NCBI GenBank assembly: GCA_016213785.1
Contig: JACQZQ010000089.1
Span: 1-57,843 of the forward strand
Source of the DNA: Acidobacteriota bacterium
Lineage (GTDB): Bacteria; Acidobacteriota; Blastocatellia; Chloracidobacteriales; JADJPF01
DNA length: 57,843 nucleotides
Direction of reading: 5' to 3'
The translations under genes were made by a program, and so were the position numbers. A model generated the notes under the pieces. It did not search any database and was not told the origin of the DNA. It saw only the letters and a program-made list of their open reading frames with translations. Positions 1,929 to 51,471 of this stretch are shown piece by piece (positions within the stretch are counted from its first letter, which is position 1; the number at the start of each line of letters is the position of its first letter).

Positions 1929-2618
1929 ATGCCGAAAGTCGGAAAGAAATATAAACAAGCTCTTTCTCAAATAGATCAACAAAAGGCATATACACTAAAT
2001 GATGGACTTGTACTGGCAAAGAAAATCGCTTTTGCAAAATTTGATGAAACTATGGAAGTAACTATGGTTTTAGGAGTTGATCCTCGTAAAGCTGATCAAA
2101 TGGTTCGAGGTACTGTAGTTTTACCAAATGGTTTAGGTAAGTCCAAAAAAGTTTGTGTAATTGCTAGTGGTGATAAGCAAAAAGAAGCGCGTGAGGCTGG
2201 TGCAGATGAAGTTGGTGGTGAAGAAATGGTAGCGCGTATCAAAGAAGGATGGCTAGATTTTGATGCTGTTATTGCTACACCAGATATGATGAAGGTTGTT
2301 GGTACTCTAGGTAAAATCTTAGGCCCAAGAGGTTTAATGCCAAACCCTAAAACAGGTACGGTTACTTTTGATGTAGTTAAAGCTATTACTGAAACAAAGG
2401 CTGGTAAAGTAGAATTTCGTGTTGATAAAACAGGCGTAATTCATGCTCCGGTAGGTAAGGTTTCTTTTAGTGAAACTAAAATTTTTGAAAATGCAAAAGT
2501 TTTAGTTGATGCAGTACTAAAGGCTAAACCTCAAACCAGTAAAGGCCGCTATGTTAAAGGTGTTTATGTTGGCTCAACAATGGGGCCTGGCATAAAAATC
2601 GACACCACTGGACTGTAA
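1929..2618 (+). CDS. rplA: 50S ribosomal protein L1
   Basis: L1 forms the mobile stalk that helps release deacylated tRNA, and often represses its own operon. The 229-residue product has typical family length. It shows the L1 signatures [20 protein letters not shown] in the first domain and [14 protein letters not shown] in the second. The C-terminal GPGIKIDT is also typical. The Shine-Dalgarno GAGGA sits about 7 bases before the ATG, at the base of the structured leader. The gap to rplJ is only 22 bp. Confidence 0.97.
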
Positions 2619-2640
2619 TTAGCAAAATTAGGAGATACTT

Positions 2641-3162
2641 ATGGATAAAAAAGGTAAACAAAAAGAATTAGACTCATTAAAAGCTGATTTTAAGAAATCT
2701 GATCATGCTTTTCTTGTGAATTTTCAAGGCTTAAATGTTGCTAATGATACGGTCTTACGCAGCGAAATGCGAAAAAATAACGTTAAATATAAAGTTGTCA
2801 AAAATACCTTAGCTCAAAAAGCTGCTGATGGAACACCTTTACAAGCCTTAAATAAAGATTTTGTAGGTCCAACCGCAGTTGCCATTTTTGATGACCCAGT
2901 AACACTGGCAAAGCTTGTTTCAAAGTTTGCTAAAGACTACGCTCAATTTAAATTTAAGTCTGGCATTGTAGAAGGTCGTGTTATTAGTGCAACAGATTTA
3001 GAAGCATTAGTAAATATGCCTTCCAAAGAACAACTGCTTTCCAAGATTATGTTTTTAATTAATTCTGGAGCACAACGACTTGCTACAGCAACCTCTGGTG
3101 TTGCTCGCAACTTGACTGTTGTTATGGGCCAGATTAGCGATCAAAAAAAGGAATCTGAATAA
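2641..3162 (+). CDS. rplJ: 50S ribosomal protein L10
   Basis: L10 anchors L7/L12 dimers on the ribosome. The 173-residue product matches the family in length. Its N-terminal RNA-binding domain includes FLVNFQGLNVANDTVLRSEM and KVVKNTLAQKA. The C-terminal helix that binds L7/L12 ends RNLTVVMGQISDQKKE. An AGGAGA ribosome binding site lies 8 bases before ATG. The 22-bp gap after rplA leaves no room for the long L10-binding leader known in Escherichia coli. Confidence 0.96.
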   Translation: MDKKGKQKELDSLKADFKKSDHAFLVNFQGLNVANDTVLRSEMRKNNVKYKVVKNTLAQKAADGTPLQALNKDFVGPTAVAIFDDPVTLAKLVSKFAKDYAQFKFKSGIVEGRVISATDLEALVNMPSKEQLLSKIMFLINSGAQRLATATSGVARNLTVVMGQISDQKKESE

Positions 3163-48395: not shown

Positions 48396-49193
48396 ATGAA
48401 AATAAATGTATGTATTGCAGGGGCTAGTGGGTGGGTTGGAAAACCTCTTTGCTTAGCTTTATCCTCAACAAATGATTTAAATCTTGTTGGTGCTGTTTCT
48501 AGGACAAATAAAGGCACTAGCCTAAAAGATTTTTTTAATAAAGAAAGTTTTGAGCTAAATTTTAGTGAATCAGTAGAAGAAGCTCTTAAAGTTCCTACGG
48601 ATGTTTTAATCGATTACACAAAGGCAGATGTAGTTAAAGCCAATGTAATCACAGCTATTTGCAAAGGAGTTTCTGTTGTTATAGGCTCTTCTGGGTTAAC
48701 GGATGAAGATTTTGTTGAGATTAATAAGTTAGCTATTGAGCATAATGTAGGCGTAATAGCTGCTGGTAATTTTGCCATTACTGCTGTTTTATTACAACGT
48801 TTTGCTTGTGAGGCAGCAAAATACTTATCTCATTGGGAAATAATTGACTATGCGTCAGATAATAAAAAGGATGCCCCAAGCGGTACAACACGCGAATTAG
48901 CTTATCGACTTTCAGAAATTAGAAAACCTGAGCTTACTCACCCAATTTCTCAAACAATTGGAGAAAGAGATAGTCGAGGAACAACATTAAATGGAATTCA
49001 GATTCATTCTTTGCGCCTTCCTAGTTACGTTATCAGTGTTGAAGCAATATTTGGTGCAAAAGATGAGCGTTTAACAATCCGCCATGATGCTGGAACAGGA
49101 GCAGAGCCTTATATAGAAGGTACTCTTTTAGCCGTTCGTAAAGTTAAAAATTATGTTGGGTTAATTAGAGGTTTAGATAAGATAATGTCTTGA
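48396..49193 (+). CDS. dapB: Dihydrodipicolinate reductase-like protein, atypical
   Basis: DapB reduces 4-hydroxy-tetrahydrodipicolinate for lysine and diaminopimelate synthesis. The 265-residue product has an NAD(P)-binding start (IAGASGWVGKPL instead of GxxGRMG) and the C-terminal DAPSGT (159-164). The usual active-site motif with His159 and His160 of Escherichia coli is replaced by YASDN (152-156): Ala153 and Ser154 stand where the histidines are, while Lys157 corresponds to the conserved Lys163. Other motifs (AAGNFAITAVLL, VVIGSSGLT) also diverge. It may represent a variant DapB branch or an enzyme with another substrate. No other lysine genes are adjacent, and no clear ribosome binding site is seen. 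Confidence 0.75.
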   Translation: MKINVCIAGASGWVGKPLCLALSSTNDLNLVGAVSRTNKGTSLKDFFNKESFELNFSESVEEALKVPTDVLIDYTKADVVKANVITAICKGVSVVIGSSGLTDEDFVEINKLAIEHNVGVIAAGNFAITAVLLQRFACEAAKYLSHWEIIDYASDNKKDAPSGTTRELAYRLSEIRKPELTHPISQTIGERDSRGTTLNGIQIHSLRLPSYVISVEAIFGAKDERLTIRHDAGTGAEPYIEGTLLAVRKVKNYVGLIRGLDKIMS

Positions 49194-49288: not shown

Positions 49289-49339
49289 TATCGCAATTAG
49301 ATTGTGATTAGATTGTGATTAGATTGCAGTTAGATTATC
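49289..49339 (+). repeat. 11-bp tandem repeat in the RiPP leader
   Basis: Successive 11-base units read TATCGCAATTA, GATTGTGATTA, GATTGTGATTA, GATTGCAGTTA and a partial GATTATC. The array covers the predicted transcription start and first 45 bases of the message. The spacing is about one helical turn, so it could bind a regulator on one face of the DNA or act at RNA level. Confidence 0.75.
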
Positions 49340-49381: not shown

Positions 49382-49687
49382 ATGAATCGTAGAGATTTTG
49401 CTAAACTTATGTTAAGTGCTGCTATTGCTGGTATGGTTTCTGGAACAGAAGTAGAAGCTGCTAGTCGTCGTCGCCGCCGTAAAAAGAAGTCTGCTAGTAC
49501 TCATAACAACCCAAACTCTAATACTCACAACACTAATAATTCTGATAATTCTGAAAAGAGCAGTTGTAAAGGGACAAGTAGCTGTAAAGGAACAAATAGT
49601 TGTAAAGGAAAAGAAGCTGGAAAAAGTAGTTGTAAGGGATCTGGTAGTTGCAAAGGAAAAAGTAGCTGTAAAAACCCTAAACAATAA
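49382..49687 (+). CDS. Predicted MNIO-modified RiPP precursor peptide
   Basis: The 101-residue product is small, has no known enzyme domain, and lies directly before a DUF692/DUF2063 pair. Residues 1-27 form a Tat-like signal peptide (NRRDF, hydrophobic core, EVEAA). Residues 29-36 are five Arg and three Lys. A Ser/Asn/Thr-rich spacer (37-60) leads to a core with six cysteines, all in Ser-Cys-Lys: Cys62, 68, 74, then after a four-residue insert Cys84, 90, 96. Five are followed by Gly and the last by Asn. By analogy with bufferin and Hvf precursors, the Cys side chains are the likely modification sites. AAGGA lies 10 bases before the ATG. Standard BufA (DUF2282) features are absent. Confidence 0.85.
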   Translation: MNRRDFAKLMLSAAIAGMVSGTEVEAASRRRRRKKKSASTHNNPNSNTHNTNNSDNSEKSSCKGTSSCKGTNSCKGKEAGKSSCKGSGSCKGKSSCKNPKQ

Positions 49688-49768: not shown

Positions 49769-50620
49769 ATGTCAAAAAATCGATGGAATTTCCCAGACTT
49801 AGGCTATGGTATTGGCCTTCGTACAGTACATTATCCAACTATTTTAGAAGAAAGCCCTGCAATAGATTGGTTTGAGATTATCTCAGAAAATTATATGGAT
49901 ACAAAAGGTAGACCAATATATATCTTAGATAAAATTGCTGAAAAATATCCTATAGTTATGCATGGTGTTTCTATGTCTATAGGAAGCACTGATCCTCTTG
50001 ATATACCTTACTTAAAGAAATTAAAAGAGTTAGCAAATCGAGTTAAAGCTCTTTGGGTTTCAGATCATCTTTGTTGGTCAGGCGTTGCAGGAACAAATAT
50101 TCATGATTTGCTTCCAATGCCTTATAATGAAGAATCATTAAAATATACTATTTCTCGTGTAAAACAAGTTTCTGAAATTCTAGAACGACCATTAATTTTA
50201 GAAAACCCCTCTGCTTATATTGAATTTACCAGTTCTGATATTACTGAATGGGATTTTCTAGTCGCTTTAACTAAAGAATCTGACTGTGGGCTTTTACTAG
50301 ATGTAAATAATGTATATGTAAGCTCTTTTAATCATGGTTTTGATCCTAATGAATATATAGATGCTATTCCTAGTGATAGAGTAGTGCAATATCACCTAGC
50401 AGGCCATACTAATAAGGGCACTCATATTATTGATACACATAGCGATTATGTAATAGACCAAGTTTGGCAGCTTTATGAAAGATCATGTCAGCATACTGGA
50501 GGTAGAGCAACGCTTGTAGAATGGGATGATGAGATTCCAGCTTTTGAAGTAGTTCATGCAGAAGTCTTAAAAGCAAAAGCCTATCGTAAGCAGCCAGAAG
50601 TAGCAATGGTGGGGGTTTAA
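49769..50620 (+). CDS. DUF692 multinuclear non-heme iron oxygenase (MNIO), BufB/HvfB-like
   Basis: MNIO enzymes use two or three iron ions to oxidise Cys residues of ribosomal peptides, as in MbnB, TglH, BufB and HvfB. The 283-residue product has a TIM-barrel metal site: Glu40 (WFEIISENYM), His65 (MHGVSMSIG), His100 (SDHLCW), Glu145-Asn146 (LENPSAY), Asp178-Asn180 (LLDVNNVYVSS), His209 and His213 (HLAGHT), His224 (DTHSDY) and Glu251 (LVEWDDEIP). All expected ligands seem present. It follows the precursor by 81 bases and overlaps the partner gene by one base, so the three genes form an operon. Substrate is inferred from context. Confidence 0.93.
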   Translation: MSKNRWNFPDLGYGIGLRTVHYPTILEESPAIDWFEIISENYMDTKGRPIYILDKIAEKYPIVMHGVSMSIGSTDPLDIPYLKKLKELANRVKALWVSDHLCWSGVAGTNIHDLLPMPYNEESLKYTISRVKQVSEILERPLILENPSAYIEFTSSDITEWDFLVALTKESDCGLLLDVNNVYVSSFNHGFDPNEYIDAIPSDRVVQYHLAGHTNKGTHIIDTHSDYVIDQVWQLYERSCQHTGGRATLVEWDDEIPAFEVVHAEVLKAKAYRKQPEVAMVGV

Positions 50621-51471
50621 TGGACAAAGAAAATTTACAAGTAGGACTTGAACGCTTTCAACGCTGGATGTCTGCGGCAATAATGTATAAAGGAACAGAT
50701 AACCAAGCTCTTAAATCTACCGAGGTTGAAAAAGAACTCCCCTGGGCTGAAGCCTTAAAATTTATTAAACCATCTAAAACCCTAACTCAAATAGAACGCA
50801 TAGGGCTTTATCGCTCAATGTATATACTTAGGCTAGTAGATGTATTAAAAATAGATTTCCCTTCTATTGCAGCCTACTTAGGCGATGATGATTATTATGA
50901 TTTTGTTGAGCGTTATTTACAGGTTTATCCTTCACGCAGCTATAACTTAAATAATTTAAGTTACGATGTCCCAGATTTTATTAAAACTGCTCCAAAAATT
51001 AAAAATAGAGCATTTCTTTATGAACTAGCTTCGCTAGAATTAATGCTTAGTCATATTTTTAATGTTGAGGAAACACCCCTTTTAACTAAAGAAGATGTTG
51101 CTGCTATTACTGCTGAAGTTTGGGAAACAGCTAAAATTATCCCTATAAAGGCATTCCATTTGTTTGCTTTTAAGCATAATACTAATGCTTATTTAGAAGC
51201 AGTTCAAAATGAGGTAAAACCTCCTAAAGTTAAAAAACAAGATACTTGGCTAGCCGTTTATCGCCGTAATTATAAGCTTTGGAGACTTCCATTAAGTTAT
51301 GATGCTTATAATATGCTTAGTGATATTGTAGCAGGCAAAACCTTAGGTGATGCAATTGTTAATGCAATTGAAAAATCTAGTGAATCTCAAGAAGTTTTAC
51401 AAGGGCAAGTCTTTAACTGGTTTCAATCATGGGTTAAAGAAGGCTTTTTCCAAAAAATAGAAACACCCTGA
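50620..51471 (+). CDS. DUF2063-type MNIO partner protein, BufC/HvfC-like
   Basis: The 283-residue product has the DUF2063 N-terminal domain signature: GLYRSMYILRLVDVLKIDFP, then LGDDDYYDFVERYL and YPSRSYNLNNLSYDVPDFI. These partner proteins bind the precursor leader and present it to the MNIO enzyme (MbnC, BufC, HvfC). The C-terminal part (about 150-283) is more variable, as is usual. The start ATG shares one base with the MNIO stop (TAATG), giving translational coupling and roughly equal expression. It is followed immediately by a perfect inverted-repeat terminator. No DoxX, transporter or sigma factor gene is seen next to it. Confidence 0.9.
   Translation: MDKENLQVGLERFQRWMSAAIMYKGTDNQALKSTEVEKELPWAEALKFIKPSKTLTQIERIGLYRSMYILRLVDVLKIDFPSIAAYLGDDDYYDFVERYLQVYPSRSYNLNNLSYDVPDFIKTAPKIKNRAFLYELASLELMLSHIFNVEETPLLTKEDVAAITAEVWETAKIIPIKAFHLFAFKHNTNAYLEAVQNEVKPPKVKKQDTWLAVYRRNYKLWRLPLSYDAYNMLSDIVAGKTLGDAIVNAIEKSSESQEVLQGQVFNWFQSWVKEGFFQKIETP

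Follow-up and report, generated by a model that had tools for sequence, protein, structure and literature searches.

The window, a 57,843-nucleotide stretch of an Acidobacteriota contig, contains a bufA-like open reading frame of 101 aa (49382..49687, + strand) with six regularly spaced cysteines, which raises the questions of what this peptide is, which enzymes would act on it, and by what route it would leave the cell. We find that it is a RiPP precursor and the first gene of a bufABC operon, and that it belongs to the captophorins as a genuine if unusual member, BufA2-like while failing the BufA2 test. Its repeat simplifies a known pattern and is not new; the surprising part is a twin-arginine signal that runs across the whole branch to which it belongs.

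The precursor and its maturation enzymes

The gene (full translation, 49382-49687: MNRRDFAKLMLSAAIAGMVSGTEVEAASRRRRRKKKSASTHNNPNSNTHNTNNSDNSEKSSCKGTSSCKGTNSCKGKEAGKSSCKGSGSCKGKSSCKNPKQ) is supported by a weak match to the NF050166 BufA2 model and by same-position orthologues in five related genomes. Its cysteines (residues 62, 68, 74, 84, 90 and 96; gaps 6-6-10-6-6) all stand in an SCK context and form two triads, SSCKGTSSCKGTNSCKG (Cys62/68/74; 49559..49609, + strand), which aligns to the first half of the six-Cys BufA2 module, and SSCKGSGSCKGKSSCK (Cys84/90/96; 49625..49672, +), divided by the four-residue insert EAGK (49613..49624, +), with a gap of 10 against the canonical BufA2 gap of 7. 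This regular spacing and the insert had been picked out in the initial annotation for the region 49466-49675 (residues 29-98), and both are borne out by the translation and by a random-placement estimate, in which six cysteines scattered at random over the 65 residues that follow the basic run yield four gaps of exactly 6 with P ~4e-5. The same annotation had Gly following five of the cysteines and Asn the last, whereas Lys follows all six; Gly (CKG, five times) and Asn (CKN, once, at the last) come at the position after Lys. At the nucleotide level the core forms an imperfect 18-bp array (6.9 copies, 64% match), on which a 48-bp higher-order unit (2.0 copies) is superimposed, and the codons have therefore diverged while the protein repeat was kept. 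The linker (residues 37-58; 49490..49555, +) is rich in Ser, Asn, Thr and His, and is poorly conserved when aligned to the congener.

The second gene, bufB (49769..50620, +), begins 81 nt downstream of the precursor and encodes an MNIO enzyme of 283 aa (PF05114, 363 bits) that scores 364.4 bits against the NCBIfam model NF050167 MNIO_BufB (cut-off 310), which identifies it as a bufferin-type MNIO; the Cys-rich precursor lies directly upstream, in bufABC order. The start of bufC (50620..51471, +) overlaps the bufB stop (TAATG), and its product, DUF2063 plus an RRE-like domain, is a PME-type-1 partner both by PF09836 (50 bits vs 27.2) and by fold. Structurally, the only significant Foldseek matches of its AlphaFold model (pLDDT 94) were the known MNIO partners TglI (8hi7, 8hci) and NGO1945 (3dee), followed by RRE-leader complexes, among them the RRE TbiB1 with its leader peptide; a PDB sequence search with BufC returned nothing meaningful. 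Together, the BufB score, the partner and the gene order support the original suggestion of a precursor core that undergoes repeated modification, and its association with a modifying enzyme.

Within BufB the MNIO residues are conserved, with E251-W-D253-D254 at the catalytic-base site. An Asp after the catalytic base has been reported for Cys-Lys MNIOs, and the window enzyme fits, with Asp254 following Asp253, where the Lys-Cys enzyme 3bww has Phe. As a Cys-Lys marker this residue is nonetheless weak, because the position varies in the sampled set and Ala is commonest there, a variability that counts against the Cys-Lys bufferin reading. Evolutionarily, the window BufB groups on the MNIO tree with L002, L003, L005 and L059; this group lies within the bufferin MNIOs, separate from those associated with TIGR04222. 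Between congeners (dS ~0.9), dN/dS is 0.35 for bufA, 0.11 for bufB and 0.12 for bufC; the faster evolution of bufA counts against a bufferin, and these values indicate a gene under constraint that is looser than on bufB and bufC, mainly in the linker and repeat order.

The operon lies between dapB upstream (48396-49193) and a gene for a DnaJ/response-regulator protein downstream, both of which look unrelated to bufABC. No DoxX gene was found within the operon and no copper-regulated gene was recognised beside it, two further points against a bufferin. Three to four 11-bp direct repeats (ATTAGATTGTG; 49296-49336), one helical turn apart and 45-85 nt upstream of bufA, are a possible regulator site; they were not found in the congener. 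A bufA-bufB intergenic hairpin that was considered folds no better than shuffles (z +1.0) and is not conserved. In the congener G001 a strong hairpin (L173, -20 kcal/mol) lies between bufA and bufB; the window has none such. Promoter and terminator scans gave no excess.

Homologous precursors and related systems

Homologues were drawn from the neighbourhoods of ~90 further bufferin-type MNIOs (genome search and contig scan). Among canonical relatives, which occur in Acidobacteriota, Planctomycetota, Myxococcota and elsewhere, the gaps are 6, 6, 7, 6 and 6, often twice over. Against the BufA2 model (NF050166, cut-off 60) the window precursor scores 18.8 bits (E 0.0013), a shortfall that counts against the Cys-Lys bufferin reading and because of which we file it as BufA2-like, not BufA2; L003, L005 and L056 reach 42.5, 43.3 and 64.1. 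The same-order precursors L003 and L005 (E 5.6e-11 and 3.1e-11 to BufA2) combine canonical modules (NECKGQGGCKSGDNGCAGKNSCKGKGGCK type) with an SCK tail and, judged by their sequences, bridge canonical BufA2 and the window form. Since homologues link both forms in this way, we read the two triads as the six-Cys BufA2 architecture, in simplified form and with its middle gap at 10. When the window clade was left out of its construction, an HMM of canonical modules gave the window core 14.7 bits, matched by 0/2000 full shuffles; that 14/2000 CKG-block shuffles and 2/2000 Cys-fixed shuffles also reach this score counts against a bufferin, so that the score alone is suggestive and becomes convincing once the operon and the intermediates are added.

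How far the hexamer phase is conserved was a question that the initial annotation had left to homologue alignment, and the answer is divided: the phase extends far beyond the species, but the grouping into triads is reshuffled even within the genus. The same-genus precursor L002 (MNRRDFAKLMLGAAVAGIVAGTEVEAAGRHRRKKK...) has three dyads of SCKG hexamers, the same-family L016 has three triads, and the same-family L004 and L059 have a long run of 7-residue SCKGEKA units. An exact hexamer register, or triads, can thus be set aside as a requirement, and because one family member uses 7-residue repeats the enzyme clade does not need the 6-residue phase.

Simple-repeat precursors (CKSKNACKSKN..., SCKDNSCKDNSC...) also adjoin bufferin-type MNIOs in the Alphaproteobacteria (L109, L126), and given their independence, cores may have become simplified on more than one occasion. 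A distinct, long type of precursor lacking a signal (L033, L034, L117, L120-L122, L124, L127, L130, L131 and L133; ELHxCMGLNACKGHDRFGTNxCAGxGxC...) adjoins enzymes closely related to BufB in Bacteroidota and in some Acidobacteriota, and the corresponding MNIOs cluster on the tree.

Compared with Bufferin 2/BufA2B2C2 (Buf_6/12Cys; Cys-Lys captophorins; PMC12452194, PMC13097082), the locus shares the bufABC order, an MNIO_BufB above cut-off, the DUF2063-RRE partner, six cysteines in two triads of 6-residue spacing, Cys-Lys that is mostly CKG, and a periplasm-directed N-terminal signal. It departs from that system in a core of SCK simple repeats without GQGGC/GDNGC modules, the wider gap between triads, the low BufA2 score, a signal that is twin-arginine by motif rather than Sec, the basic run, the missing DoxX and a canonical BufA2 encoded elsewhere in the genome. 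The EGKCG precursors (oxazolin HvfA, fontiphorin FonA, Lys-Cys captophorins) likewise combine short-period Cys repeats with a PME1-dependent MNIO, but there Lys precedes Cys and the motif has 5 residues rather than 6, and FonBC leaves unprocessed those substrates in which a charged residue follows Cys; the SCKG motif and Asp254 place the window locus outside this Lys-Cys group. Methanobactin (MbnABC) and pearlins (TglAHI) share an MNIO fold and a partner protein, yet have no Tat or Sec signal, other chemistry and distant MNIOs (the window MNIO scores 53.7 bits against the MbnB model, cut-off 325). A fourth kind of system, TIGR04222 membrane proteins with an MNIO, is represented in the same genome by a TIGR04222-like membrane protein with a Cys/Gly/Ser-rich C-terminus beside a second MNIO (L021:432-2915, G000 contig C74), and differs in its membrane protein substrate, its partner type and an MNIO that is only 34% identical.

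Twin-arginine signal and basic run

The precursor opens with a signal peptide of twin-arginine type (MNRRDFAKLMLSAAIAGMVSGTEVEA; 49382..49459, +), with RRxF, K at RR+4 and a weakly hydrophobic h-region; its N-terminus, MNRRDFAKL, fits the Tat consensus (S/N/D)RRxFxK, and cleavage would be expected after Ala26 (V-E-A). The sequence features of a Tat substrate thus found comprise the motif, basic residues near the cleavage site and a TatC encoded in the genome (235.6 bits). Among signal-bearing precursors beside bufferin-type MNIOs, 37/57 have an RRxF Tat-type motif (a count that leaves out the false match L135), with F at RR+2 in 36 of the 37 and K/R at RR+4 in 24. By phylum, with L073 corrected by hand, the motif occurs in Acidobacteriota (18/21), Planctomycetota (17/19), Verrucomicrobiota (1/1) and Armatimonadota (1/1), and in none of the precursors from Myxococcota (0/7) and Pseudomonadota (0/4). 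Mapped on the MNIO tree with L064 entered as lacking the motif, the label requires 15 changes vs 28.9 in shuffles (0/500 as low), and precursors with the motif are therefore strongly clustered, yet not one clade. A shared h-region motif, tried as a BufBC recognition site (40/57 vs 1% in shuffles), is kept as no more than a lead, because the data that yielded the pattern also supplied the count.

A twin-arginine motif would not by itself prove Tat use, and the same RiPP and enzymes could instead use Sec, the published bufferin pathway, with the RR as a mere positively charged n-region, an alternative that we consider rather unlikely. Characterised bufferins are described as Sec-dependent (PMC12452194), the Myxococcota and Pseudomonadota relatives lack the RR, and matches to the NCBIfam Tat model TIGR01409 are all sub-threshold, both for the window protein and for relatives (e.g., 16.5 vs 16.7, and 15.3). 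However, the F at RR+2 and K/R at RR+4 amount to the Tat consensus and not to charge alone, Sec would be hindered by basic residues behind the h-region, and TatC is present. A separate point counted against Tat export is that Tat usually proofreads folding; it does tolerate small unstructured hydrophilic stretches of 100-120 residues (PMC6708511), and the mature window peptide, at ~75 residues, would fall under that length. In the literature searched, we found no paper linking bufferins, captophorins or MNIOs with Tat.

The basic run RRRRRKKK (residues 29-36; 49466..49489, +) directly follows the predicted cleavage site. Conservation across homologous precursors, which the initial annotation had proposed to check, did not hold: the run is present in the two congeners only, in the second of them as GRHRRKKK. 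As a conserved docking or nucleic-acid element it is set aside as genus-only. The suggestion that it disrupts export is probably wrong, the signal being of Tat type and such basic residues typical of Tat substrates: in most E. coli and Salmonella Tat substrates the c-region or the mature N-terminus is basic and keeps Sec away (PMC7317946). In canonical Acidobacteriota precursors a K/R usually stands just after the h-region (SKAVSQ, SRAFAD, TRAFAD), and the window genus has the acidic TEVEAA there, with the basic run just behind. Because the canonical K/R site is acidic here and the run follows it, Sec avoidance is the simplest reading, and the run is likely a Sec-avoidance element.

Proposed maturation and competing explanations

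Functionally, we think it probable that the window peptide is a Cys-Lys (BufA2-like) captophorin/bufferin precursor of a Blastocatellia-type acidobacterium, modified by BufBC, exported by Tat with RRRRRKKK for Sec avoidance, and buffering periplasmic copper. In such a pathway BufC would bind the precursor, probably via the N-terminal signal/leader region, and BufB would oxidise the SCK cysteines one by one, by four electrons each, to 5-thiooxazoles. That BufB installs this group is suggested by analogy, thiooxazoles having been reported for PME1-dependent MNIOs generally (PMC13097082). The hallmark of a 5-thiooxazole is -4 Da per Cys and ~305 nm, and the expected mass change would be -24 Da in all. 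RRRRRKKK would keep the peptide off Sec until modification is done; the modified peptide would then leave by Tat and buffer the periplasm against excess copper.

It appears unlikely to us that the MNIO-modified peptide is a metallophore directed at a different metal or stress (zinc, mercury, gold, oxidative), or that it carries something other than thiooxazole. The simplified core would suit either variant, bufferin operons induced by gold and fusions to MerC have been described (PMC12452194), and which metals thiooxazole peptides prefer is only partly established (PMC13097082); against this, BufB matches the bufferin maturases at equivalog level, and the characterised products of PME1-dependent MNIOs described in the literature we read bind copper.

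The genome also encodes an unlinked BufA2 lipoprotein precursor (L167:2956-3609, G000 contig C105), with twin arginine plus lipobox (MDRRDFTKAVLGFAIAGMMSGC), three canonical six-Cys modules and 62.5 bits against the BufA2 cut-off of 60. It is divergent from an HvfX/DoxX-like gene (72.5, cut-off 80) and has no MNIO beside it; equivalents occur in G002, G003 and G004, and in G001 a fragment at a contig edge lies close to the DoxX-like gene of that genome. The two other MNIOs of the genome are of different types, the third being a weak MNIO-like protein on contig C130. Because bufC is the only DUF2063 gene in this 96% complete genome, the window BufBC pair probably serves both precursors. The pairing of a single DUF2063 gene with two precursors also fits a reading that we hold to be improbable, in which the precursor within the operon would be a paralogue in decay or set aside, and the real BufBC substrate the unlinked lipo-BufA2. 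All canonical modules are lost from the window precursor, repeat numbers drift, and the in-operon copy of G004 lacks a signal peptide through deletion or frameshift (L005, contig C78, ~2400-2720, minus strand; signal region deleted or out of frame, Cys-Lys core open). The loss in L005 reflects either an error of assembly or a gene in decay, in a genome with an intact unlinked BufA2. What speaks against decay in the window is that two congeners, at dS ~0.9 and dN/dS 0.35, have both retained the reading frame, the signal peptide and six Cys-Lys units, and that every operon-bearing close relative keeps a Cys-Lys precursor ahead of bufB. That the basic run binds nucleic acid, the membrane or the partner protein, as the initial annotation had offered, would suit the eight consecutive basic residues in the window and the seven (RHRRKKK) in the congener but is very improbable: no nucleic-acid-related gene lies in the operon, and the run cannot be a general docking site because it is absent from other members of the family and order that keep the same enzymes.

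How bufferin precursors avoid export before their cysteines are modified has been posed as an open question (PMC12452194), and some bufferins are predicted lipoproteins (PMC12636315). Taking the branch as a whole, we lean slightly towards a large, hitherto unrecognised bufferin branch, comprising most of the bufferins sampled in Acidobacteriota and Planctomycetota, that is exported by Tat and not Sec, with the window peptide as its extreme case: a minimal SCK-repeat core, a basic Sec-avoidance run, and a BufBC pair shared with an unlinked lipo-bufferin. Tat can retain an unfinished substrate as Sec cannot. If true, Tat export would thus answer how bufferin RiPPs avoid leaving the cell unmodified, and the branch-wide twin-arginine signal makes the question of premature export directly testable. 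The SCK-repeat relatives, which range from canonical modules to pure repeats, additionally offer a natural series for what BufB needs in register and Cys number.
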